DNA of 35,420 nt from Planctomycetota bacterium (GTDB lineage: Bacteria; Planctomycetota; Phycisphaerae; Sedimentisphaerales; Anaerohalosphaeraceae): NCBI GenBank assembly GCA_016873215.1, contig VGXU01000026.1, positions 1 to 35,420 of the forward strand. Direction: 5' to 3'. Shown here one piece after another: positions 22 to 3,950 of the stretch. Position numbers and translations under genes: made by a program. Positions within the stretch are counted from its first letter, which is position 1, and every line of letters begins with the position of its first letter. The notes under the pieces were generated by a model. It was not told the origin of the DNA. It searched no databases and saw nothing but the letters and a program-made list of their open reading frames with translations.

Positions 22-1449
22 TTAGGCAGCTTTCTTGTCAATCCCTTTATTTTTGCGCGTTTTTTGCTTTTGTCGAATTAATTGTGTTATCAAGTCTTTG
101 GCGAAACCGTATAAATTGTTTTTCAGGATATTGGTCAAAGCGGTTCGTGTTACAAATTCTGACGGCGTTTTTGCTGAAAATGTTCTGAGCCAGCAATTGG
201 CCTTGGTCTTTACTTGTGCCGGAAACTTTTTTGCGATCAGCTGCAGCATGCCCAGTACGAGCAGTTGGACATTGACGAATTTCTCGATAGCCGCAAGAGT
301 ATTTCTGGTTTGTGTTGGATTTGAGGAATTCTGCTCTTGCTCTTGTTTTTTCTTTGGACGGCGCGATGCCGGGCTGAGGTAGTGCGACCAGAAGTGGTAG
401 GCCATCGCCCCCAGCGTATTTTTAAGCGTATCAAACATGGTCTCGATGGTTACTCGCCGGCAGTAGAGTTGTATCGCCGTCGCCGGATCAAGGGTAAGGT
501 CGGAAGTCATCAAAATAATACGGCCGCGAGAGGTCTCCACCAGAATAAAACGCAGCATTCCTTTGACGGGCTTCCAGAGTAAATCAAGGACAAGGTAGCG
601 AACAGTTTCGCTTTTATCGTAGATATCGGCTTGCATTGTCTGAAAAGCATACCTGCTGGCGGTAGAATCAAAAAGTGTGGTCAATTTTATTTTAGTGCCA
701 TATATTTTTGTTCGTCCTTTTTGGTGCTTTTTCCGTGCCGGCGGTGTATGGTGGGCGACAACATTTTTCTTTGCCCGCGTCAGAATGTGAACGACGTTGT
801 CGATGCCGTTGAGTTGCTCGGCTGCGGCTGAGAATACCGGCCCCACGGCAAAATAGGCGTCAAGCACCAGATATGCTTTTGTTCCCATAGCCAGGGCCGT
901 TTGCTTAGCCGTTTCAATAATTTGGACGGTTTTTGGCAGCAGTCGTTTTTCCTCAGAACTCGCCACAAGCGTCAATCCTTCCTGTATAGTAGCCCAAAGC
1001 GGCACAGCGAAGTATTTGTCACACGCCTGAACCAGTAGCGAGATACAACCCCAATGATGACCTCGAAAGTAGGAAGGTTTGCTGCCGGTTTCTGAATCTT
1101 GGTGCAAGGTGGTTACTGCCGGCATTTTACGTCCGTCTTTGGGTGTCTTGGTATGGTCGCCAAGCATGACCAAACGATCCGCGACACGATAGGCGACATT
1201 TTGTTGAACCAGCCACCGCCACCAGATCGGCATGATTGTTTCAATGCTCCATGCGGTCGAATGGAAAAAATGCAGCAGGCAGGGATAGGTCTCCGGCGCC
1301 AAGGCCAGAGCCCGGATTATTGAGCTGACACCGAAAGTATCTGTTCGCAGAATGAGTCCGGCAAAGACCACTACAAACCAGCAATACGTTGCCTGCCTTG
1401 AAAATGCCGGCCGCATGAACAGCAGAAAGCGTTTGAGTTCTTCGAGCAT
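22..1449 (-). CDS. IS4-family DDE transposase
   Basis: This 475-residue protein would catalyse cut-and-paste movement of the surrounding IS. The DDE catalytic triad can be placed at D98 (in GDHTKT), D197 (in LVLDAYF) and E336. The region around E336 fits the IS4 signature exactly: Y329-(2)-R332-(3)-E336-(6)-K343. The length is normal for IS4 transposases and no frameshift or internal stop is seen, so the enzyme is probably intact. The C-terminus is rich in Lys and Arg, as expected for a DNA-binding tail. The start codon at 1449 has a good ribosome site (AAAGGA) about nine bases upstream on the - strand. A promoter reading into it is visible at 1545-1518. The family is confident; the subgroup is not resolved. 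Confidence 0.9.
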   Translation of the reverse strand: MLEELKRFLLFMRPAFSRQATYCWFVVVFAGLILRTDTFGVSSIIRALALAPETYPCLLHFFHSTAWSIETIMPIWWRWLVQQNVAYRVADRLVMLGDHTKTPKDGRKMPAVTTLHQDSETGSKPSYFRGHHWGCISLLVQACDKYFAVPLWATIQEGLTLVASSEEKRLLPKTVQIIETAKQTALAMGTKAYLVLDAYFAVGPVFSAAAEQLNGIDNVVHILTRAKKNVVAHHTPPARKKHQKGRTKIYGTKIKLTTLFDSTASRYAFQTMQADIYDKSETVRYLVLDLLWKPVKGMLRFILVETSRGRIILMTSDLTLDPATAIQLYCRRVTIETMFDTLKNTLGAMAYHFWSHYLSPASRRPKKKQEQEQNSSNPTQTRNTLAAIEKFVNVQLLVLGMLQLIAKKFPAQVKTKANCWLRTFSAKTPSEFVTRTALTNILKNNLYGFAKDLITQLIRQKQKTRKNKGIDKKAA

Positions 1450-1484
1450 GTCGGAATCCTTTCAAAATAATTTTATTTTTTTGC

Positions 1485-1545
1485 TTGACATCCATTGTCG
1501 ACATAACTATGCTATATAGCATAGTCTTGGTAAATAAATAGTCAA
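1485..1545. promoter_or_regulatory. Overlapping divergent promoters sharing an 18-bp palindrome
   Basis: On the + strand TTGACA (1485-1490) and TATGCT (1508-1513) are 17 bp apart and face the DUF6788-like gene. On the - strand TTGACT (1545-1540) and TATGCT (1523-1518) are 16 bp apart and face the transposase. Both -10 boxes lie inside the perfect palindrome CTATGCTATATAGCATAG (1507-1524). Occupation of one promoter must exclude the other, and a dimeric protein binding the palindrome would block both. Confidence 0.7.
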
Positions 1546-1564
1546 GTAAGAAAGGACAAAAAAG

Positions 1565-1852
1565 ATGGAAAAAAGTGAGCTGGCAAAAATGAATCGACGG
1601 GTCAAAACACTTCAAAAGCAACTGGATACAGTAGGCCCTGTGATGCGCGGCAGTGTGGTGATCATAGGAACACGCAACAAGCAGCCGTACTTCTCACTCA
1701 ACAAGAACAAAAAGACCTGCCTGATTTATCTGGGAAAAGAGAAGGAAGATACGGCCAGACAATATTCGCAAAACTACAAGAAACTTCTTGAGATTGTTGA
1801 GGAAATGACTATACTCAATATGACACTATTAAAAGAAAATGCCTGCCCGTAA
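1565..1852 (+). CDS. Small DUF6788-like protein carried by the IS
   Basis: This 95-residue charged protein has an N-terminal helix likely to form a coiled coil (residues 1-22), then GPVMRGSVV, then a strand-rich section with QPYFSLNKNKKT, and a C-terminal helix. This order resembles the DUF6788 family, which I recall as small proteins often found near transposases; the Cys-x-Cys pair many members carry is absent here. It has a good ribosome site (AAAGGA at 1551-1556) and its own sigma-70-type promoter at 1485-1513. It lies inside the IS inverted repeats, divergent from the transposase. No function is known to me. A role in regulating or assisting transposition, perhaps by binding the shared palindrome, is only a guess. 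Confidence 0.65.
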   Translation: MEKSELAKMNRRVKTLQKQLDTVGPVMRGSVVIIGTRNKQPYFSLNKNKKTCLIYLGKEKEDTARQYSQNYKKLLEIVEEMTILNMTLLKENACP

Positions 1853-1868
1853 CGCGAAATTGGGCGGC

Positions 1869-1888
1869 GAGAACTTGTGACTGTCGAG
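1869..1888 (-). repeat. Right terminal inverted repeat of the IS
   Basis: Read on the - strand this is CTCGACAGTCACAAGTTCTC, matching the left end at 16 of 20 positions. It lies 17 bp after the stop codon of the DUF6788-like gene, which places that gene inside the element rather than beside it. Confidence 0.7.
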
Positions 1889-1925
1889 ATATGCACACAT
1901 GATACGCATTTTTAAGGAGAAAGAC

Positions 1926-3950
1926 ATGTTTCTTGATTTTCTGGTATTTGGCATTTTTGTGGCGTGTGTAGTTGGCATTGGGATGTATAAGAGCCGTCAT
2001 GAAGCCACCGGCGAGGATTATTTTCTGGCCGGGCGGGGATTGAGCTGGTGGCTGATTGGTTTTTCATTGATTGCGGCCAATATTTCCACGGAACAGTTCG
2101 TGGGGATGTCCGGTAATGCGGCCAGTCATGTGGGGCTGGCTATCGCCAGTTATGAGTGGATGGCTGCGATTACACTGATTGTAGTCGCCTTTGCATTTCT
2201 TCCATACTTTTTGAAGGCAGGCATTTATACGATGCCGGAATTTCTTGAGCATCGTTATAACACGACCACAAGAACCATTATGGCCGTGGCGATGATGTTT
2301 ATGTATATGTTGCTGCTGGGGTCTGTCACCTATTCTGGTGCGTTGACGATTCGAAGCCTGGCAGAGCAATTATGGGGTCTGAAAATCAGCCTGGCGATTG
2401 CTTCCATTGCAATTGGTTTGATTGCAATGATTTATGTTGTAACCGGCGGGTTGAAGGCGTGCGCCTGGGCGGACCTGATTCAGGGAAGCGCACTGATTGT
2501 CGGCGGCGCCGTGATTATGTTCTTTGCGTTTGACAAGCTGGGCAGCGTGACGGAGGCGTCAACTATTGTGGACGTCAAAACCGGCGCTGTAGCCGTGGTG
2601 CAACTGGAAGAAGGCCAGGGCGCGGTAGGGCGTTTTATGGATCTGAATCGGGTGCGTTTAAATATGTTTTTGCCGGATACGGACTCGGTATTACCCTGGA
2701 CGGCCCTTTTGCTGGGATTGTGGATTCCGAATTTTTATTATTGGGGATTAAATCAGTATATTACACAGCGTACTCTTGGTTCAGCTTCTCTGGCACAGGG
2801 ACAAAAGGGGATTGTATTTGCCGCATTTATGAAACTGCTGATTCCGTTTGTGATAGTGATACCGGGTATTATCGCCTTTAATCTTTTTGCCAAAAATATG
2901 CAATTCGAGGCCGTGTATGATAATGCGCTGGTGATTGCCAAATATCTCAAAGCCAATCCTCAAACCCTGCTTGTTGATGTGGTGGAATCGCCGTCGGAAG
3001 AGGCGATCGCAAGCTGGCCATCGGGGCGATTCATGCTGGCCATATTTGAGCACCAAGAGGCAGTCAAGTCATTGAAGACCAAAAATATATACGTTCTTCC
3101 ACTTATCAAAAGCGATTATGAAACACTCAGTCCTGAGGAATTTACGGTATTTACATCAGATGATAAATCCTGGAATTTTGTGTTTCCATCTTTGGATGCG
3201 GAACTGAAAGCTTATAATGAAAAGACTCAGGCCGCGGCGGCAATCGGAGGTAAAACAGTAACGACGGAGAAATTTATCGCTCACAAATACGATACCGCTC
3301 TGGCTCAATTATTGGGCAATGTTTTACCGCAGGGCAATGGGATTGTGGGATTTGTTTTGGCGGCGCTGCTGGGAGCGGTGGTCAGTTCACTGGCCGCGAT
3401 GCTGAACGCAGCATCCACGATTTTCAGTATGGATATTTACAAGAAATTTTTGAATCCTGAAACGACACAGAAGCAGCTTGTGCTGGTGGGCCGTATTTCC
3501 GTTGTGGTATTTGTTCTTATAGCGGTCTTTCTGGCTCCGTGGCTTGGCAATCCAAAAATCAGCCACAGCATTTTTACCATTATCCAGGAAAGCCAGGGAT
3601 TTATCTCGCCGGGTATTCTTGCGGTGTTTGCGTTTGGCTTGCTGGTGCGAAAGGCGCCGCCGATGGCGGGGGTTCTCGGACTGCTGACCAATATCGTGTC
3701 GTACGGCGTTCTTAAGGTTGCCGTTCCTCAGGTTCAGTTTCTCAACCGTATGGCGATTTGTTTCGGTTTGTGTCTGGCCGTGATGGCTTTCATCACATTG
3801 GTACGTCCTCTGGCTCAACCGATCGAATTTAAGCACAACACTTCGATTAACCTGGAAAGCTCCAAGGGAGCACTTCTGGCAGGAATCGTGGTTGTGATTG
3901 TGACGTTGATTTTATACGTTATTTTCAGTCCGCTGGTCCTTGCCAAATAA
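1926..3950 (+). CDS. Sodium/solute symporter (SSS, SGLT-like), probable sugar importer
   Basis: This 674-residue inner-membrane protein of the sodium:solute symporter family has many hydrophobic helices. Family marks are the N-terminal GEDYFLAGRGLSWW segment, ANISTEQFVGMSG in the first core helix, and VVSSLAAMLNAASTIFSMDIYK, which corresponds to the helix that supplies sodium ligands in vSGLT. The start was set at 1926 because AAGGAG at 1914-1919 sits six bases upstream; an ATG nine codons earlier lacks such a site. It is about 130 residues longer than vSGLT because of a hydrophilic insert around residues 324-453. The kinase gene follows after 9-12 bp, so the pair probably imports and phosphorylates one sugar. 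The substrate is likely galactose or a related sugar, inferred from the kinase only. The IS ends just upstream. Confidence 0.85.
   Translation: MFLDFLVFGIFVACVVGIGMYKSRHEATGEDYFLAGRGLSWWLIGFSLIAANISTEQFVGMSGNAASHVGLAIASYEWMAAITLIVVAFAFLPYFLKAGIYTMPEFLEHRYNTTTRTIMAVAMMFMYMLLLGSVTYSGALTIRSLAEQLWGLKISLAIASIAIGLIAMIYVVTGGLKACAWADLIQGSALIVGGAVIMFFAFDKLGSVTEASTIVDVKTGAVAVVQLEEGQGAVGRFMDLNRVRLNMFLPDTDSVLPWTALLLGLWIPNFYYWGLNQYITQRTLGSASLAQGQKGIVFAAFMKLLIPFVIVIPGIIAFNLFAKNMQFEAVYDNALVIAKYLKANPQTLLVDVVESPSEEAIASWPSGRFMLAIFEHQEAVKSLKTKNIYVLPLIKSDYETLSPEEFTVFTSDDKSWNFVFPSLDAELKAYNEKTQAAAAIGGKTVTTEKFIAHKYDTALAQLLGNVLPQGNGIVGFVLAALLGAVVSSLAAMLNAASTIFSMDIYKKFLNPETTQKQLVLVGRISVVVFVLIAVFLAPWLGNPKISHSIFTIIQESQGFISPGILAVFAFGLLVRKAPPMAGVLGLLTNIVSYGVLKVAVPQVQFLNRMAICFGLCLAVMAFITLVRPLAQPIEFKHNTSINLESSKGALLAGIVVVIVTLILYVIFSPLVLAK

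Follow-up and report, generated by a model that had tools for sequence, protein, structure and literature searches.

A DUF6788 gene inside an insertion sequence encodes a candidate repressor acting on its own and on the transposase promoter

Results

The insertion sequence and its two genes

The window analysed in this study, meaning the whole stretch of 35,420 nucleotides, is one complete contig (C26) of the 123 contigs of a nearly complete Planctomycetota genome. Its first 1888 bp (positions 1-1888) are an insertion sequence, and the contig starts exactly at the left end of this element. The left terminal inverted repeat CTCTACAGTCATAAGTT is located at 1-17 on the forward strand and the right one (reverse complement CTCGACAGTCACAAGTT) at 1872-1888 on the reverse strand, the right end being an imperfect inverse of the left with 15 of 17 positions identical. 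A gene at 22-1449 on the reverse strand encodes a DDE-type transposase of 475 aa (IS4/IS701 superfamily), while a gene at 1565-1852 on the forward strand encodes a DUF6788 protein of 95 aa, which is proposed below to be an element-encoded repressor. Since the terminal repeats sit at 1-17 and 1872-1888, the small gene lies inside the element and is a passenger gene.

Two other contigs of the same genome carry parts of this locus. The last 127 bases of contig C33 (28245-28371) are the left end of the element, preceded by a left flank of its own. The first 43 bases of contig C3 (2-44) match window positions 1888-1930, the right flank, and are followed by other DNA without the element. In our reading, the sampled population contains at least one more junction and a target site that is unoccupied. 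An empty target site on one contig and a left end on another are a sign of recent movement or of mixed strains. Because the contig begins at the element, its own target duplication is unreadable; a duplication of 7-8 bp, ATATGCA or ATATGCAC, is expected.

The control region

Between the two genes, two divergent promoters stand face to face, and their -35 boxes delimit a block of 61 bp (1485-1545). The promoter toward the DUF6788 gene (1485-1513, forward strand) consists of TTGACA at 1485-1490, a 17-nt spacer and TATGCT at 1508-1513, with the same hexamers and spacing in two relatives (L055 and L056). The promoter toward the transposase (1518-1545, reverse strand) consists of TTGACT at 1545-1540, a 16-nt spacer and TATGCT at 1523-1518, with the same hexamers and spacing in L055. 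Both were read directly and were recovered by a promoter scan with 10/12 and 9/12 matches; the scan, which is weak when taken alone, gave 4 sites against 1.0 in shuffles. No terminator-like site was found in window positions 1400-1900.

Both -10 boxes are held in a perfect palindrome of 20 bp, ACTATGCTATATAGCATAGT, at 1506-1525, the proposed operator. Its core is the 18-mer CTATGCTATATAGCATAG at 1507-1524, and A1506 and T1525 lengthen the symmetry to 20 bp; the two TATGCT boxes occupy the arms, four bases apart. The first-pass annotation had claimed that a DUF6788-like gene and the transposase diverge from a shared 61-bp promoter block with both TATGCT boxes inside one palindrome, and direct reading of the sequence confirmed both claims. 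We infer that simultaneous occupancy of both -10 boxes by two polymerases should be impossible, and that a single protein bound to the palindrome would cover the pair.

The 18-mer is unique in the 35,420 bases when 3 mismatches are allowed, and 0/100 shuffles gave a second match. The best intergenic palindrome of the window was reached in 0/100 shuffles by a narrower search and in 3/200 by a wider one that admitted longer loops and odd ones. By itself the window's palindrome exceeds chance only moderately, and the relatives decide.

The DUF6788 protein

The small protein is a member of Pfam DUF6788 (PF20586) by the curated gathering cut-off (32 bits vs 27.2), and 31/31 small proteins of alignment A2 match this family at E 0.1 or better. 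Pfam gives no function for PF20586. In the literature searched, a set that leaves most subscription journals and ISfinder outside, the term DUF6788 was absent and no title was recognised as describing a shared-operator DUF6788 system.

The AlphaFold model of the window's protein (pLDDT 90.7) consists of a helix, three strands and a long helix, and the model of the L065 protein (pLDDT 94.1) has the same order of helix, three-strand sheet and long helix. Foldseek returned no match at E 0.001 or better for either predicted structure. The best VIA structure matches were coiled-coil or prefoldin-like, and an AP2 domain (6sy0; Z 4.2, 47 residues, rmsd 3.6) stood among unrelated matches. No recognised DNA-binding domain was found in fold searches of solved and viral structures with the two models, an absence that is no proof, and a PDB sequence search with the DUF6788 protein gave nothing below E 0.48. 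The PHROGs family phrog_36 ('transcriptional regulator') was matched by 4/31 members (best 6.3e-6) and was set aside as too thin and perhaps a coiled-coil effect. The window's small protein had no resolvase match in Pfam, NCBIfam or PHROGs; a PHROGs 'integrase' family was weakly matched by 3/31 relatives (best 0.022).

Relatives of the element

Transposase alignment A1 matched 45 loci in a set with one genome per species and one viral contig. These matches, the window, three further loci (L043, L044, L046) and four plasmid records made up the 54 transposase loci that were examined. L009, L011 and L053 were dropped because they duplicate other loci; L010 (coinciding with L057), the partial or weaker matches L012-L020 and the later-found L131 stand outside the set. 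A first scan of genome contigs with the window's transposase alone found no relative, and scans of viral contigs with the small-protein alignments A2 and A3 found none, while A1 gave its one viral locus. In the dropped L009 (position 2253 onward, genome G074) the relative breaks off near the transposase end, and by eye the next DNA resembles a different, IS66-like element.

A divergent DUF6788-like ORF was called with a purpose-built HMM at a score over 60 bits. Seven of the 54 loci are incomplete, being truncated or cut off on the side that matters (L023, L057, L061, L087, L096, L097, L099), which leaves 47 testable. The divergent DUF6788 gene is present in 37 of these 47, in L098 in broken frames only. 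The other ten comprise a tandem arrangement (L074), an internal deletion (L084), degraded remnants (L072, L082, L094, L021, L022) and a different ORF in its place (L071, L100, L093). At L071 (2439-2822) and L100 (2441-2824) this is a 127-aa ORF, alike between the two and without a Pfam match; at L093 (2443-2876) other short ORFs occupy the place, within the element.

The hosts span many phyla and are mostly metagenome bins; those named include Planctomycetota, Hydrogenedentota, Acidobacteria and Terriglobia, Desulfotignum, Beta- and Gammaproteobacteria, Spirochaetia, Nitrospira relatives and Fibrobacteria. In L056, from a Hydrogenedentota metagenome bin, a 60%-identical transposase is combined with the operator type of the window, a possible transfer between phyla.

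A pair of terminal repeats around both genes was found in 23/37 elements (11 or more of 17 positions), and in two more (L067, L092) by a looser search; the other 12 showed no enclosing pair, and some of those contigs end close to the genes. The first-pass annotation had asked whether the small gene is always inside the repeats, and it is inside wherever a pair was found. Common ends among the relatives are CTTGAGAGTACCGAGTT-like. Target duplications could be read in nine elements, with 8 bp in L056 and L060 and 7 bp in L063, L068, L069, L073, L078, L083 and L091. Some elements reach about 2.2-2.4 kb through about 400 additional bases that separate the end of a gene from the terminal repeat, beyond the small gene in L058, L059, L060, L064 and L077 and beyond the transposase in L063, L065, L085 and L086.

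Family placement

The transposase scored above the Pfam cut-offs for DDE_5 (35.2 bits) and DDE_Tnp_1 (29 bits). All NCBIfam scores were below cut-off: for the IS701 models, 154.9 bits with NF049999 (IS701_3; cut-off 170) and 40.4 with NF033540 (cut-off 150), and for the IS4 model NF033592, 34.6 (cut-off 115). The first-pass label 'IS4' is therefore not secure, the best NCBIfam match being of IS701 type. The transposase holds a Y-(2)-R-(3)-E-(6)-K motif (YCRRVTIETMFDTLK), a spacing that we take to be the IS4-family motif; in the transposase of L011 the K is missing at this place. The IS4 subgroup with passenger genes is presumably IS231.

According to the accessible part of PMC2266710, one IS4 subgroup carries passenger genes, in extra DNA before the transposase, so the earlier statement that IS4 elements normally carry only the transposase does not hold for the IS231 subgroup. 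The window's element thus resembles IS4 in the YREK-type motif and, like IS231-type elements, in bearing a passenger gene; it differs in its weak match to the IS4 model, and the accessible part of PMC2266710 describes IS231 passengers without a shared operator. In the same part of that source, IS701 elements have target duplications of exactly 4 bp and a length of 1400-1550 bp, whereas the window's element is 1888 bp long and the nine relatives have 7-8 bp. Because of these duplications the window's group is not classical IS701, although the nearest NCBIfam model is IS701_3. The ISPepr1 subgroup of IS4 is listed there with 7-8 bp duplications and YT-AA-YTT ends (PMC2266710, accessible part); the duplication length agrees with that of the window's group, while the ends CTCTACAG and CTTGAGAG are off the listed consensus.

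The promoter palindrome among the relatives

The best palindrome of each of the 37 intergenic regions (one per place) was compared with 200 dinucleotide shuffles. It was equalled in at most 2/200 shuffles in 24/37 elements and in 0/200 in 19/37. Among the 13 elements that miss the 2-of-200 threshold, the window (3), L044 (4), L059 (5) and L069 and L090 (7 each) come near, L043, L075, L070 and L078 reached 18 to 33 of 200, and L062, L081, L085 and L098 are far off. The palindrome of L086 is doubtful, with 2/200 in the wider search vs 63/100 in the narrower.

The exact pattern ATAGC-N8-GCTAT occurs in 23/37 elements, and the full 18-mer ATAGCATATATATGCTAT is exact in 13/37, from several phyla. 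A promoter palindrome thus recurs in most relatives that have a DUF6788 gene, and neither of the two findings that the first-pass annotation had named as refuting its reading was made. The two nearest relatives of the window (L055, L056) have the window's version, with the half-sites in the opposite order to most relatives (GCTATGCTATATAGCATAGC); in L056 the palindrome is 30 bp long and perfect. Where the half-sites vary, both arms change, as in TGTATC...GATACA (L091, L075), CCTAGC...GCTAGG (L083) and CCGATAGC...GCTATCGG (L024). By a loose criterion without shuffle control, the palindrome overlaps a candidate -10 box in at least one direction in most elements. In L068 a perfect intergenic palindrome of 38 bp results in two identical opposed promoters, TTGCTA-17-TATAAT.

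In the eight relatives that have lost an intact DUF6788 gene to degradation or replacement, no palindrome is significant (lowest count 31/200, L022). These eight are not all independent, as L072 and L094 come from one strain, L021 and L022 are related and so are L071 and L100. At L084, which has the internal deletion in the small gene, the palindrome is intact (2/200). By eye the terminal repeats are unlike the palindrome, which is what one would expect of a palindrome not bound by the transposase.

The exact operator pattern TATAGCAT-N4-ATGCTATA was tried as a predictor of the module and rejected. It matched one of 392 Planctomycetota genomes (L101) and 19 viral stretches (L102-L120), and none of these 20 matches holds a DUF6788 gene or a transposase of this group, a single HMM hit at E 0.13 (L119) being taken as chance. 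The operator motif alone is therefore no predictor of the module, and its matches in such large collections look like chance.

DUF6788 beside other transposases and recombinases

The family search found DUF6788 in 26/392 genomes of the phylum, 11/62 of one order and 1/4 of one class (overlapping sets); the whole-genome search with the same PF20586 model missed the window's gene and so under-reports the window's subgroup. Of 28 distinct neighbour ORFs (8 scanned with NCBIfam alone, 18 with Pfam alone, 2 with both), 12 match transposase models, 11 have no match and 4 have non-transposase matches (one each at L029, L122, L129 and L130). The transposases include an IS1634 type (L025, 199.5 bits, above cut-off), IS4_1 types (L026, 266, and L030, 137.5, above cut-off; L027, 106.4, below), an IS1182 type (L031, 239.9, cut-off 270), an ISKra4 type (L028, 129.8, cut-off 205) and IS4/IS1380-like or DDE proteins (L036, L037, L041, L045, L048, L051). 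The L032 neighbour matches DUF4277, an N-terminal domain also present in L051, and tblastn detected relatives of the L025 IS1634-type transposase in the DNA of L032, L051, L052, L054 and L121 as well.

Plasmids were searched with five DUF6788 proteins; four found one Polaromonas record and the fifth found four other records. In four Burkholderiales plasmids (L136-L139) DUF6788 is annotated between a DUF5372 (Y4bD/Y4pK) gene and a recombinase, centrally within a serine-recombinase cluster; three of these four plasmids were inspected by eye, and none showed a strong palindrome. Five of 12 enlarged loci from outside the window's group were inspected for repeats: convincing pairs enclose both genes in L140 (ISKra4-like) and L143 (IS4_1), L151 has a weaker pair, and L148 and L149 have none that convinces. 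No target duplications were found for these five.

Outside the window's group, 35 DUF6788 genes were tested by comparing the stretch from -140 to +12 with 60 shuffles (L126, with no settable start, was dropped). A palindrome at ≤1/60 was found upstream in 12/35, inside the gene in 1/35 and downstream in 1/32; the other 23/35 have no significant palindrome upstream. L030 was counted via an apparent terminator of the upstream gene, and its CCGATAGC palindrome lies closer to the start. The operator CCGATAGC-N9-GCTATCGG is common to L027 and L030 (IS4_1), L028 (ISKra4) and L135 (neighbour unknown), and the DUF6788 proteins of L027, L030 and L028 are 49-53% identical (54/102, 51/105, 54/105). L024, which belongs to the window's transposase group, has CCGATAGC-N8-GCTATCGG together with a cysteine-bearing DUF6788 like those of L027, L030 and L028 (46/88 and 44/82 identical).

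Similarity of the protein and similarity of the operator were correlated over 51 loci (r = 0.60, 0/2000 permutations), a non-random sample made up of the window's group (36, weak palindromes included) and 15 loci picked for a visible or significant palindrome. For pairs from different transposase families r was 0.485 (641 pairs, 0/2000), and without six hand-chosen operators it was 0.448 (394 such pairs, 4/2000); loci with unknown neighbours each counted as a family of their own, and the label permutations ignore relatedness among loci. The tie between the palindrome and DUF6788 is non-random and spans several transposase families.

Discussion

A proposed role for DUF6788

We propose here a regulatory role for DUF6788 (PF20586). 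It appears fairly probable that the small gene encodes a transcriptional repressor that binds the palindrome and controls both its own promoter and that of the transposase. The DUF6788 protein would very likely sit as a dimer on the palindrome holding the -10 boxes of both promoters, and its binding would shut off the DUF6788 gene and the transposase gene together. After entry into a new cell both genes would be expressed until the DUF6788 protein accumulates and would then be silenced, and this silencing would limit transposition. We infer dimerisation, DNA binding, repression as the direction of control and the effect on the transposition rate from the sequences; repression would be the natural sign, because the palindrome covers the -10 boxes. 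One regulator would fit three facts, namely a gene fixed in the element, a palindrome that recurs over large distances and their coupling beside unrelated transposases. Weighing against the repressor are the 13/37 elements that miss the shuffle threshold, the 23/35 other DUF6788 genes lacking a significant upstream palindrome, the intact palindrome of L084 next to its gutted small gene, the plasmids with DUF6788 among serine-recombinase genes, and two predicted structures with no convincing likeness to a known DNA-binding domain.

The first-pass annotation had left a choice between a regulator and an accessory factor of transposition. The regulator is favoured, since the palindrome follows DUF6788 across unrelated transposase families. 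A DUF6788 protein serving as an accessory (end binding, target choice or assembly of the complex), which happens to autoregulate and represses the transposase secondarily, would suit its company with several transposase families and with serine recombinases; we consider it unlikely, as a long transposase ORF is kept where DUF6788 was lost or replaced (L071, L100) and nothing operator-like is seen by eye in the terminal repeats. Transposase autoregulation is known in other insertion sequences, and the elements in which the palindrome recurs were grouped by their transposase, so the transposase itself might bind the palindrome and regulate both genes while DUF6788 has another role. This seems improbable when palindromes with the same core accompany DUF6788 beside unrelated transposases (L027, L030, L028), when transposase genes that lack DUF6788 (L071, L100, L093) have no significant palindrome, and when, by eye, the palindrome has no likeness to the ends, the obligatory binding sites of the transposase.

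Two readings dispense with a protein on the DNA palindrome. The symmetry could be the mere look of two overlapping opposed -10 boxes, giving mutually exclusive promoters free of any repressor, and in the window and L055 both TATGCT hexamers do lie inside the palindrome. We regard this as quite improbable: the symmetry exceeds the hexamers (30 bp in L056, 38 bp in L068), most relatives have the half-sites in the opposite order with N8 spacing, altered half-sites change on both sides (L091, L083, L024, L076), and palindromes also occur in tandem DUF6788-transposase elements without a divergent transposase promoter (L027, L028, L030). In such tandem elements CCGATAGC-N9-GCTATCGG stands just after the likely -10 box and would be transcribed, as would suit an RNA hairpin in leader transcripts that guards against read-through or offers DUF6788 an RNA site. 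The palindrome of the window's group, however, overlaps the -10 boxes and would lie mostly outside either gene's own transcript, and the lack of a terminator-like site at 1400-1900 points the same way, so that a hairpin is very improbable.

Beyond the window's group, the repressor reading may be extended to a portable repressor-operator module taken up by IS701/IS4-like, IS1634, IS1182 and ISKra4 elements, perhaps also by serine recombinases, with a co-evolving operator and a general function as a brake on copy number; we give this extension about an even chance. Most small insertion sequences are thought to be self-limited through the transposase or antisense RNA. If the proposal is true, a dedicated repressor gene with an operator co-evolving across unrelated transposase families would give simple insertion sequences a new way of restraining themselves, Pfam DUF6788 would gain a function, and many natural protein-operator pairs would be at hand for studies of specificity.

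Comparison with known systems

The Tn3 family offers two parallels. As described in the accessible part of PMC7157771, TnpR acts on the shared tnpA-tnpR region, binding there and repressing the two genes. With TnpR-res the window's element has in common a second gene, often divergent from the transposase in Tn3 elements, whose product binds, or in the case of DUF6788 would bind, the shared promoter region (PMC7157771, accessible part). TnpR itself is a resolvase, with res serving as a recombination site too, whereas the window's DUF6788 protein has no resolvase match, and the window's element is a small DDE-type insertion sequence with a single short palindrome. The same source, in its accessible part, describes toxin-antitoxin passengers of the Tn3 family whose antitoxins bind palindromes in their own promoter, these too being small passengers located within the region that controls the transposition module (PMC7157771). 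The window's element differs in having one gene only, with no toxin partner seen beside DUF6788 inside it.

TnpR of Tn3 is the best functional parallel to the role proposed for DUF6788, though the two proteins are unrelated. New here is that DUF6788 also adjoins transposases of other families (IS1634, another IS4 type, IS1182, ISKra4), often with a promoter palindrome, and DUF6788 is probably a travelling brake on transposition.
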